DNA from: Gemmatimonadaceae bacterium
GTDB taxonomy: Bacteria; Gemmatimonadota; Gemmatimonadetes; Gemmatimonadales; Gemmatimonadaceae
DNA: 32,641 bases
Direction: 5' to 3'
Assembly (NCBI GenBank): GCA_025930755.1
Contig: JAICOJ010000029.1
Coordinates: 1-32,641 of the forward strand
In this document: positions 1-6,110 of the stretch, one piece after another
Layout of the letters: each line of letters begins with the position of its first letter
Position numbering within the stretch: position 1 is the stretch's first letter
Translations under genes and position numbers: made by a program
The notes under the pieces: generated by a model
What the model saw: only the letters and a program-made list of their open reading frames with translations
What the model was told of the DNA's origin: nothing
Database searches by the model: none

Positions 1-887
1 AGTCCGGCACGCAATCCCCGATTCGACACCGAATAATCCTCGAGGCTCAGCCGCTGCTCGAGCCTGGTGTTCGCCACCCAGTCGTTGTAGTTGCCATACC
101 CGGGGGACCCGGGCGCGACATTGGTGATGCGCTCGAGCTCGCGACGCGCCTCGCGTTCGGTCGGCCGCACGATCGCGTACGCGGCCATGCCGAAGTGCAG
201 CGGCGGGAGCCCGGCCTCGTCACGACGCCTCGCCAGCTCGGCGATCCTCGGGGCGATGCGCTCCGGCGGATCGCCGTGCATCACGTACGCGTCGCACGTG
301 CGCGCGATGAGCGCCTTGGCCGCGTCGGACTCCCCGCCGGCATAGACCGGAGGCCGCGGCCGCCTAACGGGCTTCGGCTCGGCGATCGTCTCCTCGATGT
401 GGAAGAACCGTCCGCGGTAGCTGAACGTCGGCTCCCGCCACACGCCATCGACGACCGCGAGCCACTCGGCGGTGCGCGCATAGCGGTCATCGTGCTCGTC
501 GAACGACACCCCGTAGCGACGGGCCTCGTCGCGCCACCACGACGAGACGACGTTGAGCGCCACTCGGCCGCCCGAGATCCGATCGATGTTCGCCGCCTGC
601 TTGGCGAGGATGGCCGGATGGTGAAAGGTCGGGCGCACCGCGATCATCAGCTCGAGACGATCCGTCACGGCGGCGAGCGCGGCCGCGGTCGACCAGGCAT
701 CGAGCGAGGGCGCGGTGATCCCCTTGATGTCGTTGAGAAACAGCTCGGCGATGAGCGTCAGGTCGTAGCCGATCTGCTCGCTGCGCTGCGCGAGGCGACG
801 TACGTAGTCCCACGTCGGCGCCATCCCTTCGTCCGGGACGTTGCGCAGCCACCCGCCGAAGACGGGGAGCCAGTAGCCGTAGCGCAT
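1..887 (-). CDS. LLM-class flavin-dependent monooxygenase (SsuD/SfnG-like), 3' end cut by window edge
   Basis: The reading frame is open from the ATG at 887 to the window edge (295 codons), so the C-terminus is missing. The start reads MRYGYWLPVFGGWLRN. A central stretch, RISGGRVALNVVSSWWRDEA, followed by a segment around YGVSFDEHDDRYARTAEWL and then TFSYRGRFFHIEE, is typical of the alkanesulfonate / dimethylsulfone monooxygenase branch of the bacterial luciferase-like TIM-barrel family. Family members use FMNH2 and O2 to cleave C-S bonds in organosulfur compounds, supplied by a separate flavin reductase; none is visible here. The ATG overlaps the stop codon of the upstream ATP-grasp gene by one base (TGATG), so the two are probably translationally coupled. 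With the SAM-II-type riboswitch upstream, a role in sulfur scavenging is inferred. The exact substrate cannot be read from the sequence. Confidence 0.88.
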   Translation of the reverse strand, partial: MRYGYWLPVFGGWLRNVPDEGMAPTWDYVRRLAQRSEQIGYDLTLIAELFLNDIKGITAPSLDAWSTAAALAAVTDRLELMIAVRPTFHHPAILAKQAANIDRISGGRVALNVVSSWWRDEARRYGVSFDEHDDRYARTAEWLAVVDGVWREPTFSYRGRFFHIEETIAEPKPVRRPRPPVYAGGESDAAKALIARTCDAYVMHGDPPERIAPRIAELARRRDEAGLPPLHFGMAAYAIVRPTEREARRELERITNVAPGSPGYGNYNDWVANTRLEQRLSLEDYSVSNRGLRAG

Positions 888-1873
888 CACGCGACCTTCG
901 CGTGCGCGAGACCGGCCCGCTGCTCCAGATAGTCGACGAACGCCAGCCAGGGATCGAAGCCGACGACGTTGGGTGCATCGGCGACGAAGTTCGAGAGCGC
1001 GTTGATGTCGTAGAAGTAATGGCGCCCGTCGCGATCATCCACGAGGAACTCGATCCCGCCGACGTCGAGGCGCGCCGCGCGCGCGATGTGCTCCACCTGC
1101 GCAACGATCTCCGCCGGCGGCCTCGCCGCCTCGACGCGAAGCCCCGTGCGAGGCGCGTCGACGGCGCACGCGCCACGCACGAGCTCGACCCCCTCGGTCG
1201 TCTGGCACGCGTCCGCCGGACAGAGATCGAAGGACCCCGAGGCCGGATAGACGTTGATCGCATACAGGTACGATCCGCCCAGCGTCTCGACGCGCGTGAT
1301 GTGGCCGTCGCGCAGCGGCGCGCACTCCTGCACCAGCGCCGTTCCGTCGACACCGAGCTCGACGCGTCCCTGCTTCACCGCCTCGGTGAGCGCCGCGGTC
1401 GTCTCGTAGCGCACGATCCCGGCACCACTCCCGCCGACGTTCGCCTTGATGAGCAGTGGGGCGCGCAGCGTCGCGGCGACTGCCGGGGCCTGCGCCGGGT
1501 TGTTGATGACACGCGCGCGCGGGTACGGCAGGCCGAGCTCTTCGAGCAGATCGAGCTGCCGCGCCTTCGACAGCTCGAGACTGTAGACGTCCGCGCCGTT
1601 CACGACCGGGACGCCGAGGAGCTCGAGATGGCGCAGCCAGTGCAGCGTGTAGAAGAGGCTGTGCGCGTGTCCTCGGAGATACGCCGAGGGGCTCGCTCGA
1701 TTCACCACCAGCGAGTACGGAACGCCGCGCTCGGCGGGATCGAAGGCGTGGGACGCGGCATCGATCCGCTCGTAGGGCAGCCCCCGCCGGTCGAGCTCGG
1801 CAAAGAGCGGAGCGAACCAGTGCGGGTGCTCGTGAAAGATGCCGATCGGATGATGTGGAGCGTGCGCGGCCAT
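887..1873 (-). CDS. ATP-grasp domain protein (RimK-like carboxylate-amine ligase fold)
   Basis: A 328-residue protein. The N-terminal third (about 1-105) looks like the pre-ATP-grasp domain. A glycine-rich ATP loop, LLIKANVGGSGAGIVR, lies near residue 145, and the C-terminal metal-binding segment is YFYDINALSNF near 295. These features fit the ATP-grasp superfamily of RimK or glutathione-synthetase type, which joins a carboxylate to an amine or thiol through an acyl phosphate. The substrate is unknown. The start ATG has a GAGGAG ribosome site about 8 bases upstream. It is the first gene after the riboswitch and terminator-like hairpin, and it overlaps the LLM monooxygenase by one base, so the two should be made together. 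A ligase in a likely SAM-controlled operon suggests sulfur-amino-acid or thiol chemistry, but that is inference. Confidence 0.85.
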   Translation of the reverse strand: MAAHAPHHPIGIFHEHPHWFAPLFAELDRRGLPYERIDAASHAFDPAERGVPYSLVVNRASPSAYLRGHAHSLFYTLHWLRHLELLGVPVVNGADVYSLELSKARQLDLLEELGLPYPRARVINNPAQAPAVAATLRAPLLIKANVGGSGAGIVRYETTAALTEAVKQGRVELGVDGTALVQECAPLRDGHITRVETLGGSYLYAINVYPASGSFDLCPADACQTTEGVELVRGACAVDAPRTGLRVEAARPPAEIVAQVEHIARAARLDVGGIEFLVDDRDGRHYFYDINALSNFVADAPNVVGFDPWLAFVDYLEQRAGLAHAKVA

Positions 1874-1925
1874 GGGTGCTTCTCCTCGACGAGTGGCCGC
1901 CGGCGGCCGACGATGGAGTCGACCG

Positions 1926-1962
1926 AAAAACGAAAGCGCCCGAGCGGAAGTTCCGCCCGGGC
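1926..1962 (-). terminator. Intrinsic terminator-like hairpin between riboswitch and ATP-grasp gene
   Basis: On the minus-strand RNA, GCCCGGGCGG (1962-1953) pairs with CCGCUCGGGC (1947-1938) to give a 10-bp stem with one G-U pair and a short AACUU loop. An interrupted U-rich run (CUUUCGUUUUU) follows, ending at 1926. The hairpin begins about 5 bases after the riboswitch core and about 50 bases before the ATP-grasp start. That placement suggests SAM-dependent attenuation of the operon, though the riboswitch could equally act on its own. Confidence 0.7.
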
Positions 1963-1966
1963 TGTT

Positions 1967-2021
1967 CGCTTTTTAGCACCTTGTTTTACGTGGCGGCAAT
2001 AGGCGGCAAATGACCACGGGA
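1967..2021 (-). promoter_or_regulatory. SAM-II-type (SAM-alpha) riboswitch
   Basis: Read on the minus strand, the element has a P1 5' strand CGUGGU (2018-2013), then CAUUUG, a loop containing UAUUGCC, a closing strand GCCACG, a linker UAAAACAAGGU and the 3' core GCUAAAAAGCG (1977-1967). This follows the SAM-II layout closely: a stem, an AUUU segment, UAUUGC in the loop, the returning stem, an A-rich linker and a GCUAAAAAG tail that forms the pseudoknot. One departure is C2012 where the sequence I remember has G (UGAUUU). The element sits about 12-14 bases after the expected start of transcription. SAM-II is best known upstream of methionine and SAM genes in Alphaproteobacteria; the related SAM-V class shares the core and cannot be excluded by eye. 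Confidence 0.85.
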
Positions 2022-2038
2022 GTTCAGTTGTCTCCGTT

Positions 2039-2068
2039 ACTATAGCCCGGCCCTGGCCTCCGGGTCAA
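2039..2068 (-). promoter_or_regulatory. Sigma70-like promoter of the riboswitch operon
   Basis: On the minus strand, TTGACC (2068-2063) and TATAGT (2044-2039) are separated by 18 bases. Each matches the -35 or -10 consensus at five of six positions. Transcription would start near 2032, just ahead of the riboswitch. The position relative to the riboswitch strengthens both calls. Confidence 0.7.
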
Positions 2069-2097
2069 GCGGCGTTTCAACGGCAGAGATGACAGGG

Positions 2098-2124
2098 TTC
2101 AGAATACAGAATACGGATTCAGAG
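2098..2124. repeat. Short heptad-type tandem repeat between operon promoter and kinase gene
   Basis: Two perfect copies of the 7-mer CAGAATA are followed by degenerate copies (CGGATTC, AGAG). I see no inverted partner arm, so this may be a remnant of the foldback repeats found in other spacers of the window. It lies between the upstream promoter region of the riboswitch operon and the end of the histidine kinase gene. The rest of the spacer up to 2183 shows nothing recognisable. Confidence 0.45.
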
Positions 2125-2183
2125 CTTGGCGGGACGCATCGGCTCGCTCCTCACCGTCCTGCCTGGCCGCTGGGGCCCGACGA

Positions 2184-3998
2184 TCACCCCGCGCGCGGGA
2201 GCCGCACGATGAACGTCGCCCCTTCCCCGAACGTGCTTTCCACCAGCACGTCGCCGCCGCTCGCGCGCGCGAGCGTCCGGCTGATCGCGAGGCCGAGGCC
2301 CACGCCATCCCTGCCCGTCGGGCGCTCGTCGAGCTGGCGAAACGGCTCGAAGACTCTGCTTTGCATCTCGGGCGGAATTCCGGGACCCGAGTCCTTCACG
2401 CGCAGGTTCACGACGTCCGGTCCCGGGATCTCGGCCGACAAGGTCACGCATCCTCCCGATGGCGTGAACTTTACCGCGTTCGCCAGGATGTTGATGAGGA
2501 TCTGCTGAATGCGATCGGGGTCGCCCTGCACCGCCGCGTGGTCCTCGGCTGACACCGTCACCGAGATCCCCTTCATGGTCGCCTGAGGCATCACCGCGTC
2601 CACGGCGTTTCGAAGCGCCTCGACCGCCACAATGCGCCTGATCTCCCGTGGTCGAGACGCCGACGTCAGGGCGGAGAAGCGAAGCAGGTCATCCACCAGA
2701 TGCAGAAGGTGACGCTGATTCCCCGCGATTCGCGCCAGATCGTGCTGCTGCGAGTCGGAGAGGTCGCCGCGAATTCCCATCTGGAGGAGCTGCACGTAGC
2801 CGCCGATCGCGTTGAGGGGCGTGCGAAGGTCGTGACTCACCGAGGCGAGCAGCTCCGCCTTTTCGCGATCGGCGGATTCGGCCGCCTGCCGTGCCAGCTG
2901 CTCCGCCTCGAGCAGGCGCGCGCGCTCGAGCGCCTGCGCGCACTGCTGCGCGACGATCGCGGTGAGATTCCGGTCCTCGGGAGTGAAGCGCCGCGGTCGG
3001 GCGAAGGCGACGCCCATGGAGCCGATGGTGCGCGACTCGATCACCAGCGGGACCACGATCAGTGAATGCTGGCCGGACGCCTCGAGCATGCCGGCGAGCG
3101 CGGGATAGCGCGCCGTCCACTCGTCAGGCGACTCGATCGTGATCGGCGCGCCCGTGCGCACGACTTCGGCGAGCGGGGCATCGGCGTCGACGGGAAACCG
3201 GGCCCACTCGTCGCGGTACTCGCCCGGCATCGCGCGCGCGTCGAGGATCTCGAGCGACCGGCCATCGCCGGCGAGACGCGCAATCACGGTACCCGCCGCG
3301 CCGAACATGGCCGTCGTGTGCTCGATGACCGACTTGGCCACGTCGAACGGCGTCGCCGATACCGAGAGCGCCGACGTCAGCTCCTGGAGTCGGTCGGCTC
3401 GCTGGCGCAGCTGACGCAGGCTGCGAATGAGCCGGCGGCGATCGAGCGCGAACGCGAGCGGACCCGCGATCGACCGGAGGCGCTCGACCTCCTCGCGAAG
3501 AAACCGGGTCCGGCTGCGCGTCCCGACCGAGAACGTCCCCACCAGCCGATCGCCCACCAGAAGCGGCTCGCAGATGTAGGCGGTGATGCCGAGCGATCGA
3601 ATGAGCGCAACCATCGGATCGGAGGCGGACTGCACGTCCTCCCGCACGATCTCGGCACGCTGCATCGCGACGTTGCCGCACACCGCCTGGCCGAACTCCA
3701 GCCACTCGAGCGATTCCTCTTGCTCGGGGGAGACGCCGGCCACGAAGTTGAGCCGAAGCCGGGTCGCGTCGTCGACGACCAGGTAATTGAAGCAGCAGTC
3801 GAGACGGAGCTCGACACGCAGGAGGTCGTAGACGGCGGTGATGATCTCACGCGGATCGTCCCGCGTGAGCATCGCCGTCATGGCGTCGGAGAGCGTCGTT
3901 AGGCGCCGGACCTTCTCCACGAGCGCCGCGTAGCCGCTCGTCCCTTCCACCGCCGCCCGGGCTTCGGTTGCCAGCTGCGGGTCAGACACCTGCCGCAT
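2184..3998 (-). CDS. Soluble sensor histidine kinase, GAF-GAF-HisKA-HATPase
   Basis: A 604-residue protein with no signal peptide or membrane segment. Two GAF-like sensor domains are visible (about 30-190 and 205-365); the first contains a Cys-Cys pair at 68-69. A HisKA dimerisation domain has the phospho-acceptor His389 in SVSHDLRTPLN. The HATPase_c domain shows the N box (ILINILANAVKF, about 500-511), G1 box DSGPGI (536-541), F box VFEPFRQLD and G2 box GVGLGLAIS (565-573). It should autophosphorylate in response to a cytoplasmic signal and pass the phosphate to a response regulator. No regulator gene is nearby, so it is an orphan kinase. The start at 3998 lacks a clear ribosome site, so the true start could be slightly downstream. 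Signal and target are unknown. Confidence 0.93.
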   Translation of the reverse strand: MRQVSDPQLATEARAAVEGTSGYAALVEKVRRLTTLSDAMTAMLTRDDPREIITAVYDLLRVELRLDCCFNYLVVDDATRLRLNFVAGVSPEQEESLEWLEFGQAVCGNVAMQRAEIVREDVQSASDPMVALIRSLGITAYICEPLLVGDRLVGTFSVGTRSRTRFLREEVERLRSIAGPLAFALDRRRLIRSLRQLRQRADRLQELTSALSVSATPFDVAKSVIEHTTAMFGAAGTVIARLAGDGRSLEILDARAMPGEYRDEWARFPVDADAPLAEVVRTGAPITIESPDEWTARYPALAGMLEASGQHSLIVVPLVIESRTIGSMGVAFARPRRFTPEDRNLTAIVAQQCAQALERARLLEAEQLARQAAESADREKAELLASVSHDLRTPLNAIGGYVQLLQMGIRGDLSDSQQHDLARIAGNQRHLLHLVDDLLRFSALTSASRPREIRRIVAVEALRNAVDAVMPQATMKGISVTVSAEDHAAVQGDPDRIQQILINILANAVKFTPSGGCVTLSAEIPGPDVVNLRVKDSGPGIPPEMQSRVFEPFRQLDERPTGRDGVGLGLAISRTLARASGGDVLVESTFGEGATFIVRLPRAG

Positions 3999-4104
3999 CC
4001 ATCCGCATTCAGCTTCTCACCAGATCGTGTGGGGGCGTCGTCGCCACCGCAAATGCCGCTTGAACTTGGCGAGAGGCACGCGCGGTCGCAATCGGGTGGA
4101 TGCC

Positions 4105-4422
4105 CTACGTCACGGCCCCCGTCGCCAGGATCACGTCGTAATGCGTCACGAACGGCTCGCGCTCCAGGAGGTAGTCGTCGTCCTCGTCGTAGTAGCGCGC
4201 CCGGGCGTACTCCTCTCCGGCGAAGCGCTGGATGGCTTCGACGGAGTCCCAGAGCGAGGTCAGCACGAAGTGCGTGACGCCATCCATGGTACGCCGGAGG
4301 ACAATCAGGCCGCGGTTGCCCGGAGTCGCGGCGATGTCCGCCAGTCCCGTGCGATGGAGAAACGCTTCGTAGGCGTCCGCCTTCGAGGCGGGAACCCGCC
4401 CGTGCCAGGTGCGCGCGATCAT
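4105..4422 (-). CDS. ABM-superfamily (antibiotic biosynthesis monooxygenase-like) small protein
   Basis: A 105-residue protein starting MIARTWHGRVPASKADAYEA. The pattern VLTSLWDSVEAIQRFAGEEY followed by a C-terminal FVTHYDV strand is characteristic of the dimeric alpha/beta-barrel ABM superfamily, whose members include small cofactor-free monooxygenases and heme-degrading enzymes. No residues pin down a substrate. The ATG lies inside the end of the arginase-fold gene (ATGA overlap, 4 bases), so translation is coupled to it. It is the last gene of a two-gene leftward unit. The frame could be read upstream into the neighbouring gene, but the ABM homology begins exactly at this ATG. Confidence 0.85.
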   Translation of the reverse strand: MIARTWHGRVPASKADAYEAFLHRTGLADIAATPGNRGLIVLRRTMDGVTHFVLTSLWDSVEAIQRFAGEEYARARYYDEDDDYLLEREPFVTHYDVILATGAVT

Positions 4423-5384
4423 CCGTGGCTCCGCGCGAGGACTTCCCAGAACCCCGGGGGCCGTGCGGTCGAGGGCGGGCTCTCGCCCAGAACCCGCTCG
4501 AGAAGGCCAGCCAGCCTCGCGGCGCTGGACCGATCGGGATCCAGCGCCGGATCGTAAATCGTCAGCTCGAGACCAAGCGCTGCCGGATGTCGCGCGAGCG
4601 GCGCGAGGAGGTCGCCGAGCTCGGCGAGCGTGAGCCCGCCAGGCTCCGGTGAGTCGACTGCCGGTAACACCGTCGGATCGAGCACATCGGCGTCGACGTG
4701 AATCCAGAATCCGTCGACCTTCGGCGCCAGACGGTCGATCGTCGCGCTCGCCGCCGCTCCGGCCCCGCCGGCGCGAACCGCGGCGTGGGCGAGATCCAGC
4801 ACCGGGGACGCGCGGAGCACGTCGCCGCCATACCACGGCTCGTCCCAGTCGTCGCGCCGCCCGATGACGACGACGTCCTCCCCTCGCACCAGTGGAGCCT
4901 CTCCATCGAGACGCGCGAGAACCGTGTCGCCCCGACCCACGGCGAGCGCGAGACACATGCTGGCGGCCGACCCGGTGCGCGAGGACTCGGGCGTCGCGAA
5001 ATCGGCGTGCGCGTCGACGTACACGAGGCCCACCCGGGAGCAGCCGCCACGCCGGACGCCGAGCAAGCCACCCAGCACGACGCTGCAGTCACCGCCGAGG
5101 AGGAGCGTGAACGCGTGGGCGGCGGTGGCGTCGGCGACGCGACCCGCGATCTCTCGCGAGTACGCCGCGACCCCGTCCTCATTGCGCGGGCGATGCGGCG
5201 GCCGAACGAAGTCGCGGTACGGTGGCGGAACGACGTCGCCGAGGTCGCGCGCCCCGATGCGGTTGACGAGCCCCTGCTGACGGAGCGTGTTCGGCGCGAG
5301 GTCGAGCCGGCGAGCCGTCCCGTCATCGTACGGGCGGATGCCGATGCTCGACGGGGCACCAACGATGGCGATGGGACGATCCAT
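4419..5384 (-). CDS. Arginase/ureohydrolase-fold protein with altered metal-site residues
   Basis: A 321-residue protein of arginase-family length. Metal-ligand motifs appear in order: GGDCS (97-101), DAHAD (124-128), DADVLDP (231-237) and ELTIYDPALD with Glu273. Classical arginases and agmatinases have GGDHS, so the first ligand is Cys100 rather than His. The segment that normally carries the active-site His after DAHAD reads GSAASM here. The fold is clear, but arginine, agmatine or formimidoylglutamate hydrolysis should not be assumed. A GGAG ribosome site lies about 6 bases before the ATG. It is the first gene of a pair with the ABM protein and is divergent from the CGNR zinc-finger regulator across a 120-bp spacer with operator-like repeats. 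Confidence 0.85.
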   Translation of the reverse strand: MDRPIAIVGAPSSIGIRPYDDGTARRLDLAPNTLRQQGLVNRIGARDLGDVVPPPYRDFVRPPHRPRNEDGVAAYSREIAGRVADATAAHAFTLLLGGDCSVVLGGLLGVRRGGCSRVGLVYVDAHADFATPESSRTGSAASMCLALAVGRGDTVLARLDGEAPLVRGEDVVVIGRRDDWDEPWYGGDVLRASPVLDLAHAAVRAGGAGAAASATIDRLAPKVDGFWIHVDADVLDPTVLPAVDSPEPGGLTLAELGDLLAPLARHPAALGLELTIYDPALDPDRSSAARLAGLLERVLGESPPSTARPPGFWEVLARSHG

Positions 5385-5504: not shown

Positions 5505-6110
5505 ATGCCCGGGCACCGGTTCGAGCTCATCGGCGGGGATCCCGTCCTGGACTTCGTGAACACCGTCCACGACTGGACGGCGGCCAAGCCGCGCGACTAC
5601 GTGCCGACCTTCTCCGATGCGCTGCGCTTTGGGGAGGCCGTCGGCGTGCTCACGCCCGCCGAGGCCCGGAGGCTGAGCGCGCTCCCGCCGGGAACGGAGC
5701 TTCGACGGCTTCGCGAGCTGCGCACCCGGCTCGAGCGCGTCCTTCGCGCCGTCCAGGCCGGCCGGTCGCCCACGGCGGACGACCTCGAGCAGCTCGCCGA
5801 TGACGCGGCCGATGGGGCGCGCGCGGCGCGGTTGCGGGCCGAGAAGGGGCATCTGAAGCGCGTCATCGATGCCGACGCCGCGGGCGTTGCGGCCCTGCGC
5901 CTACGCCTCGTCGACGGGATGATCGCGCTGCTGACGTCCGAGCGCCTGTCGCGCGTCAGCCGGTGCCCCAGCTGCGGCTGGTTCTTCGTCGACGCTACGA
6001 AGAACCGGTCACGTCGATGGTGCAGCATGGCGATGTGCGGCAGCGCCGTGAAAGCGCGCAATTACTACTGGCGCACAAAAAAACGTCGCGAAAAAAAGAT
6101 CGCGCGCTAG
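5505..6110 (+). CDS. ABATE/CGNR zinc-finger putative transcription regulator
   Basis: A 201-residue protein. Residues 1-125 match the ABATE-type N-terminal domain (FELIGGDPVLDFVNTVHDW near the start). The C-terminus carries a CGNR-type zinc finger, CPSCGWFFVDATKNRSRRWC followed by SMAMCGSAVKARNYYWR. The metal Cys residues are kept, but the signature CGNR reads CGSA. A strongly basic tail (KKRREKKIAR) follows. The family is predicted to bind DNA and regulate stress or metabolic genes. It is divergent from the arginase-fold/ABM pair and may control it and itself through the repeats in the shared spacer. There is no strong ribosome site before the ATG. Confidence 0.88.
   Translation: MPGHRFELIGGDPVLDFVNTVHDWTAAKPRDYVPTFSDALRFGEAVGVLTPAEARRLSALPPGTELRRLRELRTRLERVLRAVQAGRSPTADDLEQLADDAADGARAARLRAEKGHLKRVIDADAAGVAALRLRLVDGMIALLTSERLSRVSRCPSCGWFFVDATKNRSRRWCSMAMCGSAVKARNYYWRTKKRREKKIAR

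Follow-up and report, generated by a model that had tools for sequence, protein, structure and literature searches.

The window, by which we mean the whole stretch of 32,641 nucleotides analysed here, comes from a soil bacterium of the phylum Gemmatimonadota. At its start, on the minus strand, what looks like a SAM-II riboswitch precedes genes for an ATP-grasp ligase and a luciferase-like monooxygenase (LLM). The question raised by this locus is how such a riboswitch would control a gene pair of this kind, and which process it would thereby govern.

Leader and operon layout

A sequence-only reading of this DNA had placed a promoter (2039-2068), a SAM-II-type core (1967-2021), a strong hairpin with a U-rich tail (1926-1962) and two overlapping genes, for an ATP-grasp protein and an SsuD/SfnG-like monooxygenase, in one direction. 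Each of these elements was recovered, and all are collinear on the minus strand from 2068 to 1, in the order promoter, SAM-II aptamer, hairpin with U-rich tail, AGGAGA, ATG at 1873, ATP-grasp gene and LLM gene (Table 1). The promoter (TTGACC-18-TATAGT, 10 of 12 consensus matches) is the only such site within 1-4200, where 0.3 would be expected by chance, and a TTGAC-type -35 box occupies the equivalent place in most of the leaders seen. The hairpin has a minimum free energy of -29.6 kcal/mol (z -5.7). Of the 30 ligase leaders, 29 score as having a terminator-like hairpin with a U-rich tail, as do 115 of all 123 leaders and 4 of 60 shuffled sequences. The two ORFs (1873-887 and 887-3, minus strand) overlap by ATGA at 887.

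Table 1 Features of the SAM-II leader and its operon in the window.
Feature	Position	Strand	Basis or remark
Sigma-70-like promoter, TTGACC (2068-2063)-18 nt-TATAGT (2044-2039)	2039..2068	-	10/12 consensus matches
SAM-II aptamer	1952..2027	-	Rfam 37.2 bits; model R1 66.7 bits
P1 5' strand, CGUGGU	2013..2018	-	pairs with GCCACG 1994-1989
P1 3' strand, GCCACG	1989..1994	-	pairs with CGUGGU 2018-2013
U10-U12 (2010-2008) and L1 GCCGCC (2007-2002)	2002..2010	-	P2a pseudoknot strand; proposed antiterminator strand
P2a, CGC pairing with GCG	2005-2003 with 1969-1967	-	L1 pseudoknot
GCUAAA, P2b 3' strand and SAM-pocket nucleotides G42-A47	1972..1977	-	pairs with UUGC 1999-1996
Predicted intrinsic terminator	1926..1962	-	stem 1962-1938, U-rich tail GCTTTCGTTTTT to 1926
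Shine-Dalgarno-like AGGAGA	1881..1886	-	7 nt ahead of start codon, outside aptamer
ATP-grasp ligase, LysX/ArgX/RimK-like, 328 aa	887..1873	-	ORF, profile searches, predicted structure
Luciferase-like FMNH2 monooxygenase, SfnG/SsuD type, incomplete	1..887 (ORF 887-3)	-	runs off contig start

Identity of the SAM-II aptamer

The covariance-model search that had been proposed for the SAM-II core was run with Rfam across the whole window. It returned RF00521 (SAM-II, SAM_alpha) at 2027-1952 on the minus strand, with 37.2 bits against a gathering cut-off of 36 (E 4.6e-5), and zero further RNA family matches. A clade-specific covariance model, R1, built on 31 sites, of which 30 come from related genomes and one is that of the window, scores the window aptamer at 66.7 bits. 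P1 and the pseudoknot P2 (P2a, and P2b with UUGC opposite GC-U-AA), by which membership of the SAM-II class is judged, both form, with support from covariation. In 31 distinct rows, almost all from ligase leaders, 99.5% of the P1, P2a and P2b pairs are standard, compared with 16-48% when the partners are slid, and two P1 pairs show changes on both sides. Among 123 leaders, one P2a pair flips, with C-G in 57 of them and G-C in 47.

The window has every one of the 13 conserved nucleotides of the pocket (U10-12, U20, U21, G22, C23, G42, C43, U44 and A45-47), whose list and roles are taken from structure 2QWY (PMC3764141). The sole deviation noted is a C at position 8 in place of the usual G8, which is nearly invariant among the best SAM-II matches of the clade; among leaders ahead of the ligase 18 of 30 have C8, and among those ahead of other genes 18 of 93. 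G8 forms a triple with G42-C23 and is not given as a SAM contact (PMC3764141). Because only two UAU triples are described as fully conserved (PMC3764141), G8 is typical of SAM-II but does not define it, and C8 is not disqualifying. Although 37.2 bits barely exceeds the RF00521 cut-off, the window element is by its sequence a genuine SAM-II riboswitch, and it is predicted to bind SAM.

Switching mechanism

A hairpin so close to the core had been thought unusual, on the premise that SAM-II is mostly a translational switch. This premise is wrong, since the literature ties most SAM-II elements to transcription terminators (PMC6061858, PMC2258182, PMC1273637). Many have a terminator between P2 and the ORF (PMC1273637), terminator association is the most frequent arrangement, Proteobacteria included (PMC2258182), and translational SAM-II elements form a minor subset (PMC6061858). 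Thus, an attenuator near the SAM-II core is the norm and not the exception. The alpha-proteobacterial SAM-II (SAM_alpha, metA motif, RF00521) shares the aptamer sequence, P1 and the P2 pseudoknot with the window element, and likewise has a promoter just upstream and a terminator between P2 and the ORF (PMC1273637). The SAM-II leader of Sinorhizobium meliloti (S. meliloti) metZ (sRNA RZ) also has a predicted SAM-induced terminator directly after the aptamer, although ahead of a different gene, and complementarity between L1 and the terminator is not described in the parts of that source consulted (PMC9373788). The leader sequence indicates that the window SAM-II is most likely a transcriptional OFF switch; because the Shine-Dalgarno sequence lies 66 nt downstream of the aptamer, its occlusion by the pseudoknot is unlikely.

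A transcriptional switch of this kind could operate through L1. In the window, CCGCCU of L1 (2006-2001) stands opposite GGGCGG of the terminator (1958-1953), giving six contiguous pairs. When SAM is absent, L1 (GCCGCC) would pair with the terminator arm (GGCGG), so that the terminator would be blocked and the operon transcribed; when SAM is present, L1 would be locked in the P2 pseudoknot, the terminator would fold and transcription would end. L1 reads GCCGCC in 29 of the 30 ligase leaders, and their terminator arm usually contains GGCGGC and in several leaders is longer than the stem requires. This near invariance means that ligase leaders alone provide no contrast for L1-terminator co-variation. 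Since L1 varies across SAM-II leaders as a whole, each leader's own L1 was compared with its own terminator region, starting after P2a, in all of them, with a permutation control.

The L1-terminator energy averaged -10.5 kcal/mol for own partners and -9.1 kcal/mol for permuted ones (103 leaders, z -8.2). After similar leaders were collapsed, 43 remained, with a z of -5.1 and no permutation as low, and a fixed column-permuted L1 control that retains relatedness gave a z of 0.05 (sd 0.93). The signal weakens to a z of -2.3 (p 0.015) within gene classes, and L1 in reverse falls below the permuted values as well (z -2.4); the signal therefore stems partly from composition and descent. Taken together, the comparisons speak well, though not conclusively, for a second function of L1 as an antiterminator: a terminator and a mutually exclusive antiterminator are both present on comparative grounds (complementarity and co-variation) rather than biochemical ones. 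Because plain free-energy folding of the leader favours the terminator in any case, switching would have to be kinetic. The RNAalifold consensus for the whole leader is weak, since the antiterminator and P1/P2 exclude each other and are pseudoknotted.

A further fold was observed at 2018-2003, where the P1 5' strand can form an alternative hairpin with L1 (GUGGU with GCCGC), replacing the P1 3' strand. In several leaders this hairpin is the minimum-energy fold, and it may offer another means of keeping the aptamer in the unbound state.

The ligase and the monooxygenase

The structure model of the ligase (pLDDT 83) matches ArgX, LysX and RimK with Z scores of 25-28 over ~275 residues at ~20% identity. 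Because of this predicted fold, the enzyme should join a carboxylate to an amine, as enzymes of the LysX/RimK type do. It differs from those families in that it falls below all of their NCBIfam cut-offs (47.6 of 143 bits for TIGR00768 and 26 of 276 bits for TIGR02144, the RimK/LysX models), and unlike the LysX and RimK systems it has no link here to LysW or ribosomal protein S6.

The window LLM comprises 295 codons, truncated by the contig end, compared with ~350 in relatives. Its nearest structures, both closely related, are PDB 3rao and 8vw6, neither of which comes with a usable functional description, followed by SfnG and SsuD/MsuD, two-component FMNH2 monooxygenases of the same fold family. 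SfnG is the best NCBIfam model, although the full-length orthologue L068 scores 258 bits with TIGR04021, under the cut-off of 383. By HMMER alignment and in the window protein, the sulfonate-binding residues R225 and H227 of MsuD are replaced by A and Y, which sets the LLM apart from SsuD/MsuD and rules it out as a plain alkanesulfonate monooxygenase. Given the missed SfnG cut-off and these replacements, a simple alkanesulfonate is improbable as its substrate. The LLM is also distinguished by its near-constant place beside the ligase. An SsuE-type FMN reductase directly precedes the ligase in six loci, which represent five distinct sites (L037 and L155 being the same); in L037/L155 it has SAM-II on one side and the ligase on the other, and in L033, L074, L091 and L107 it adjoins the ligase. 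Such a neighbour fits a two-component FMNH2 monooxygenase.

Distribution of SAM-II and of the gene pair

SAM-II is present in 58 of 60 relatives examined. By the first gene downstream, the sites comprise methionine synthase metH (47), ATP-grasp (10), O-acetylhomoserine sulfhydrylase (9), metX (8), threonine synthase (8), panB (4), homoserine dehydrogenase (4), a sulfite-reductase group (3), an aminotransferase (3) and single cases including metK, with names assigned by NCBIfam to one representative of each main class and to metK. Most of the targets are methionine and sulfur genes; the ATP-grasp/LLM pair ranks second in frequency, and the other targets include metH, metZ/Y, metX, thrC, hom, panB, sulfite reductase and metK. 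A genome-wide search with the clade model found a single SAM-II copy in the source genome, ahead of the ATP-grasp/LLM operon, and it may be observed separately that the main SAM-II target of its relatives is metH.

A search from the protein side gave 30 distinct loci at which SAM-II precedes the ligase in the same orientation, and almost all of their leaders retain the pocket and the pseudoknot. The LLM directly follows the ligase in 27 of the 29 testable loci, L069 being truncated and excluded and L076 and L077 being without an LLM. When 71 ligases are placed on a tree, 4 changes suffice for the SAM-II label, compared with 23 in shuffles, a pattern that fits a single gain inside Gemmatimonadota followed by a few losses, more basal relatives and Acidobacteriota being without it. 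The pair itself is widespread, occurring in Gemmatimonadota, Acidobacteriota and Armatimonadota; Deinococcus has a related one. For many cassette orthologues in basal Gemmatimonadota and Acidobacteriota no SAM riboswitch was found, and 20 loci without SAM-II have no other riboswitch near the cassette at the Rfam gathering level. No further gene proved to be conserved next to the cassette, most of the clusters that seemed to suggest one being shadow ORFs, and no conserved sulfur transporter was found there.

Relative to SAM_alpha of Proteobacteria, the host here is a member of Gemmatimonadota and the ATP-grasp/LLM target lies outside the known regulons, which include metY, metA, metX, metC, hom and metW (PMC4239095). 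In the openly accessible literature searched, no paper linked a SAM riboswitch to an ATP-grasp gene and no report of SAM-II in Gemmatimonadota was found. The early suggestion that this pair is not a textbook SAM-II target is borne out by a recurrent association (30 leaders) that is unreported in the literature searched.

Several further arrangements were seen in the survey. L002 has two divergent SAM-II elements in one intergenic region, at 1501-1576 (minus strand) and 1784-1857 (plus strand), one facing panB and the other the ATP-grasp cassette. SAM-II also lies upstream of panB (ketopantoate hydroxymethyltransferase) in L118, L144, L153 and L002, upstream of thrC (threonine synthase) in L117, L121, L127, L129 and others, and in a single case (L023) upstream of an apparent TonB-dependent receptor; these three targets are missing from the published SAM_alpha target lists consulted. 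In an Acidobacteriota genome, a strong cobalamin riboswitch (104.9 bits) lies downstream of the cassette (L099, 7820-8024). Elsewhere in the window, an arginase-family gene (4419-5384, minus strand) adjoins a divergent ABATE/CGNR zinc-finger regulator (5505-6110, plus strand; Pfam).

Related pairs occur outside these phyla. Deinococcus plasmids carry a related LLM (58% identity) downstream of a different ATP-grasp protein, which has only distant similarity to the window ligase. In Deinococcus peraridilitoris (plasmid, L195), a SAM-I riboswitch (RF00162, 60.6 bits) at 4369-4492 is followed by a terminator-like stretch and then by the ATP-grasp/LLM pair. In Deinococcus deserti (L194, 2876-7023), a D-cysteine desulfhydrase, an Asp/Glu-type racemase, an ATP-grasp ligase and an LLM form one unit. 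In Spirosoma, two amino acid permeases and an LLM of more distant kinship come after a ligase relative (55%).

Role of the operon and alternative readings

Since two unrelated classes of SAM riboswitch control such pairs and genes for cysteine and amino acid metabolism or transport lie nearby, sulfur supply from an amino-acid-like compound is the likeliest role of the operon. The two enzymes, with FMNH2 from an SsuE-type reductase, would release sulfur from an organosulfur compound that is probably amino-acid-like and conjugated by the ligase; the pathway would run when methionine or SAM is short and be shut off when SAM is plentiful. We give a probability of roughly 0.7 to this reading as a whole, that is, to a SAM-II transcriptional OFF switch on an operon that releases sulfur from an organosulfur compound. 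The sulfur role gains support because an SsuE-type reductase joins the cassette and SAM-I precedes the Deinococcus pair. A SAM-sensing sulfur-acquisition operon with a ligase step, as the sequence-only reading had put it, is strengthened to that extent, while the acquisition and the ligase step themselves are what we infer. In a Bacillus route, S-modified cysteines are first N-acetylated and then cleaved by a flavin monooxygenase; that the ligase takes a capping role like this N-acetylation is speculation by analogy. The fully specified version, sulfur salvage in which the ligase caps an organosulfur amino acid and the SfnG-like LLM cleaves it, with independent control by SAM-II and SAM-I and a dual use of L1, is tentative and falls short of even odds.

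The riboswitch might instead work as described while the operon makes or modifies a peptide-like metabolite tied to methionine or SAM status, for example through consumption of methionine or a one-carbon unit. Ligases of the LysX/RimK type do form amide bonds, the presence of panB and an aminotransferase among the SAM-II targets implies a regulon that is not purely for sulfur uptake, and no conserved sulfur transporter accompanies the cassette. However, the LLM is closest to the desulfurising SfnG and SsuD, some loci include the SsuE-like reductase, and Deinococcus independently shows control by SAM-I and has a D-cysteine desulfhydrase gene nearby, which together make the peptide-like metabolite an unlikely product.

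Doubt could also fall on the switch. The hairpin is stable unaided and might be a constitutive terminator or a leader-trimming element behind an aptamer that is weak, translational or inactive; at S. meliloti metA, a terminator downstream of SAM-II has no predicted SAM response (PMC9373788). The Shine-Dalgarno sequence far outside the aptamer, the retention of pocket and pseudoknot and the co-variation of L1 with the terminator all argue against this, and we regard it as improbable. Still further down in probability, to the point of being very improbable, is a SAM-II variant whose ligand specificity was altered by the change of G8 to C (and of A9 to U in some relatives). The enrichment of C8 in ligase leaders would suit such a variant, but the direct SAM contacts U11, U21, G22, U44 and A47 are unchanged and G8 takes part only in the triple with G42-C23 (PMC3764141). 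A variant ligand class based on C8 was rejected, because metX, hom and thrC are likewise preceded by leaders with C8 and the pocket is intact.

Significance

The riboswitch and attenuator are real and of a conventional kind; the novelty lies in the host phylum, in the operon targeted and in the evidence pointing to L1 as an antiterminator. The survey, with more than 100 sites, extends SAM-II to a phylum for which no published report was found, and it provides a concrete model of antitermination, open to test, for a riboswitch class in which the mechanism of transcriptional control is poorly established. Earlier riboswitches have likewise exposed unknown pathways. Riboswitch control gives an uncharacterised ligase/monooxygenase pair a metabolic setting, namely sulfur or methionine shortage, and the arrangement suggests an undescribed route for obtaining sulfur that would be off when SAM is sufficient.
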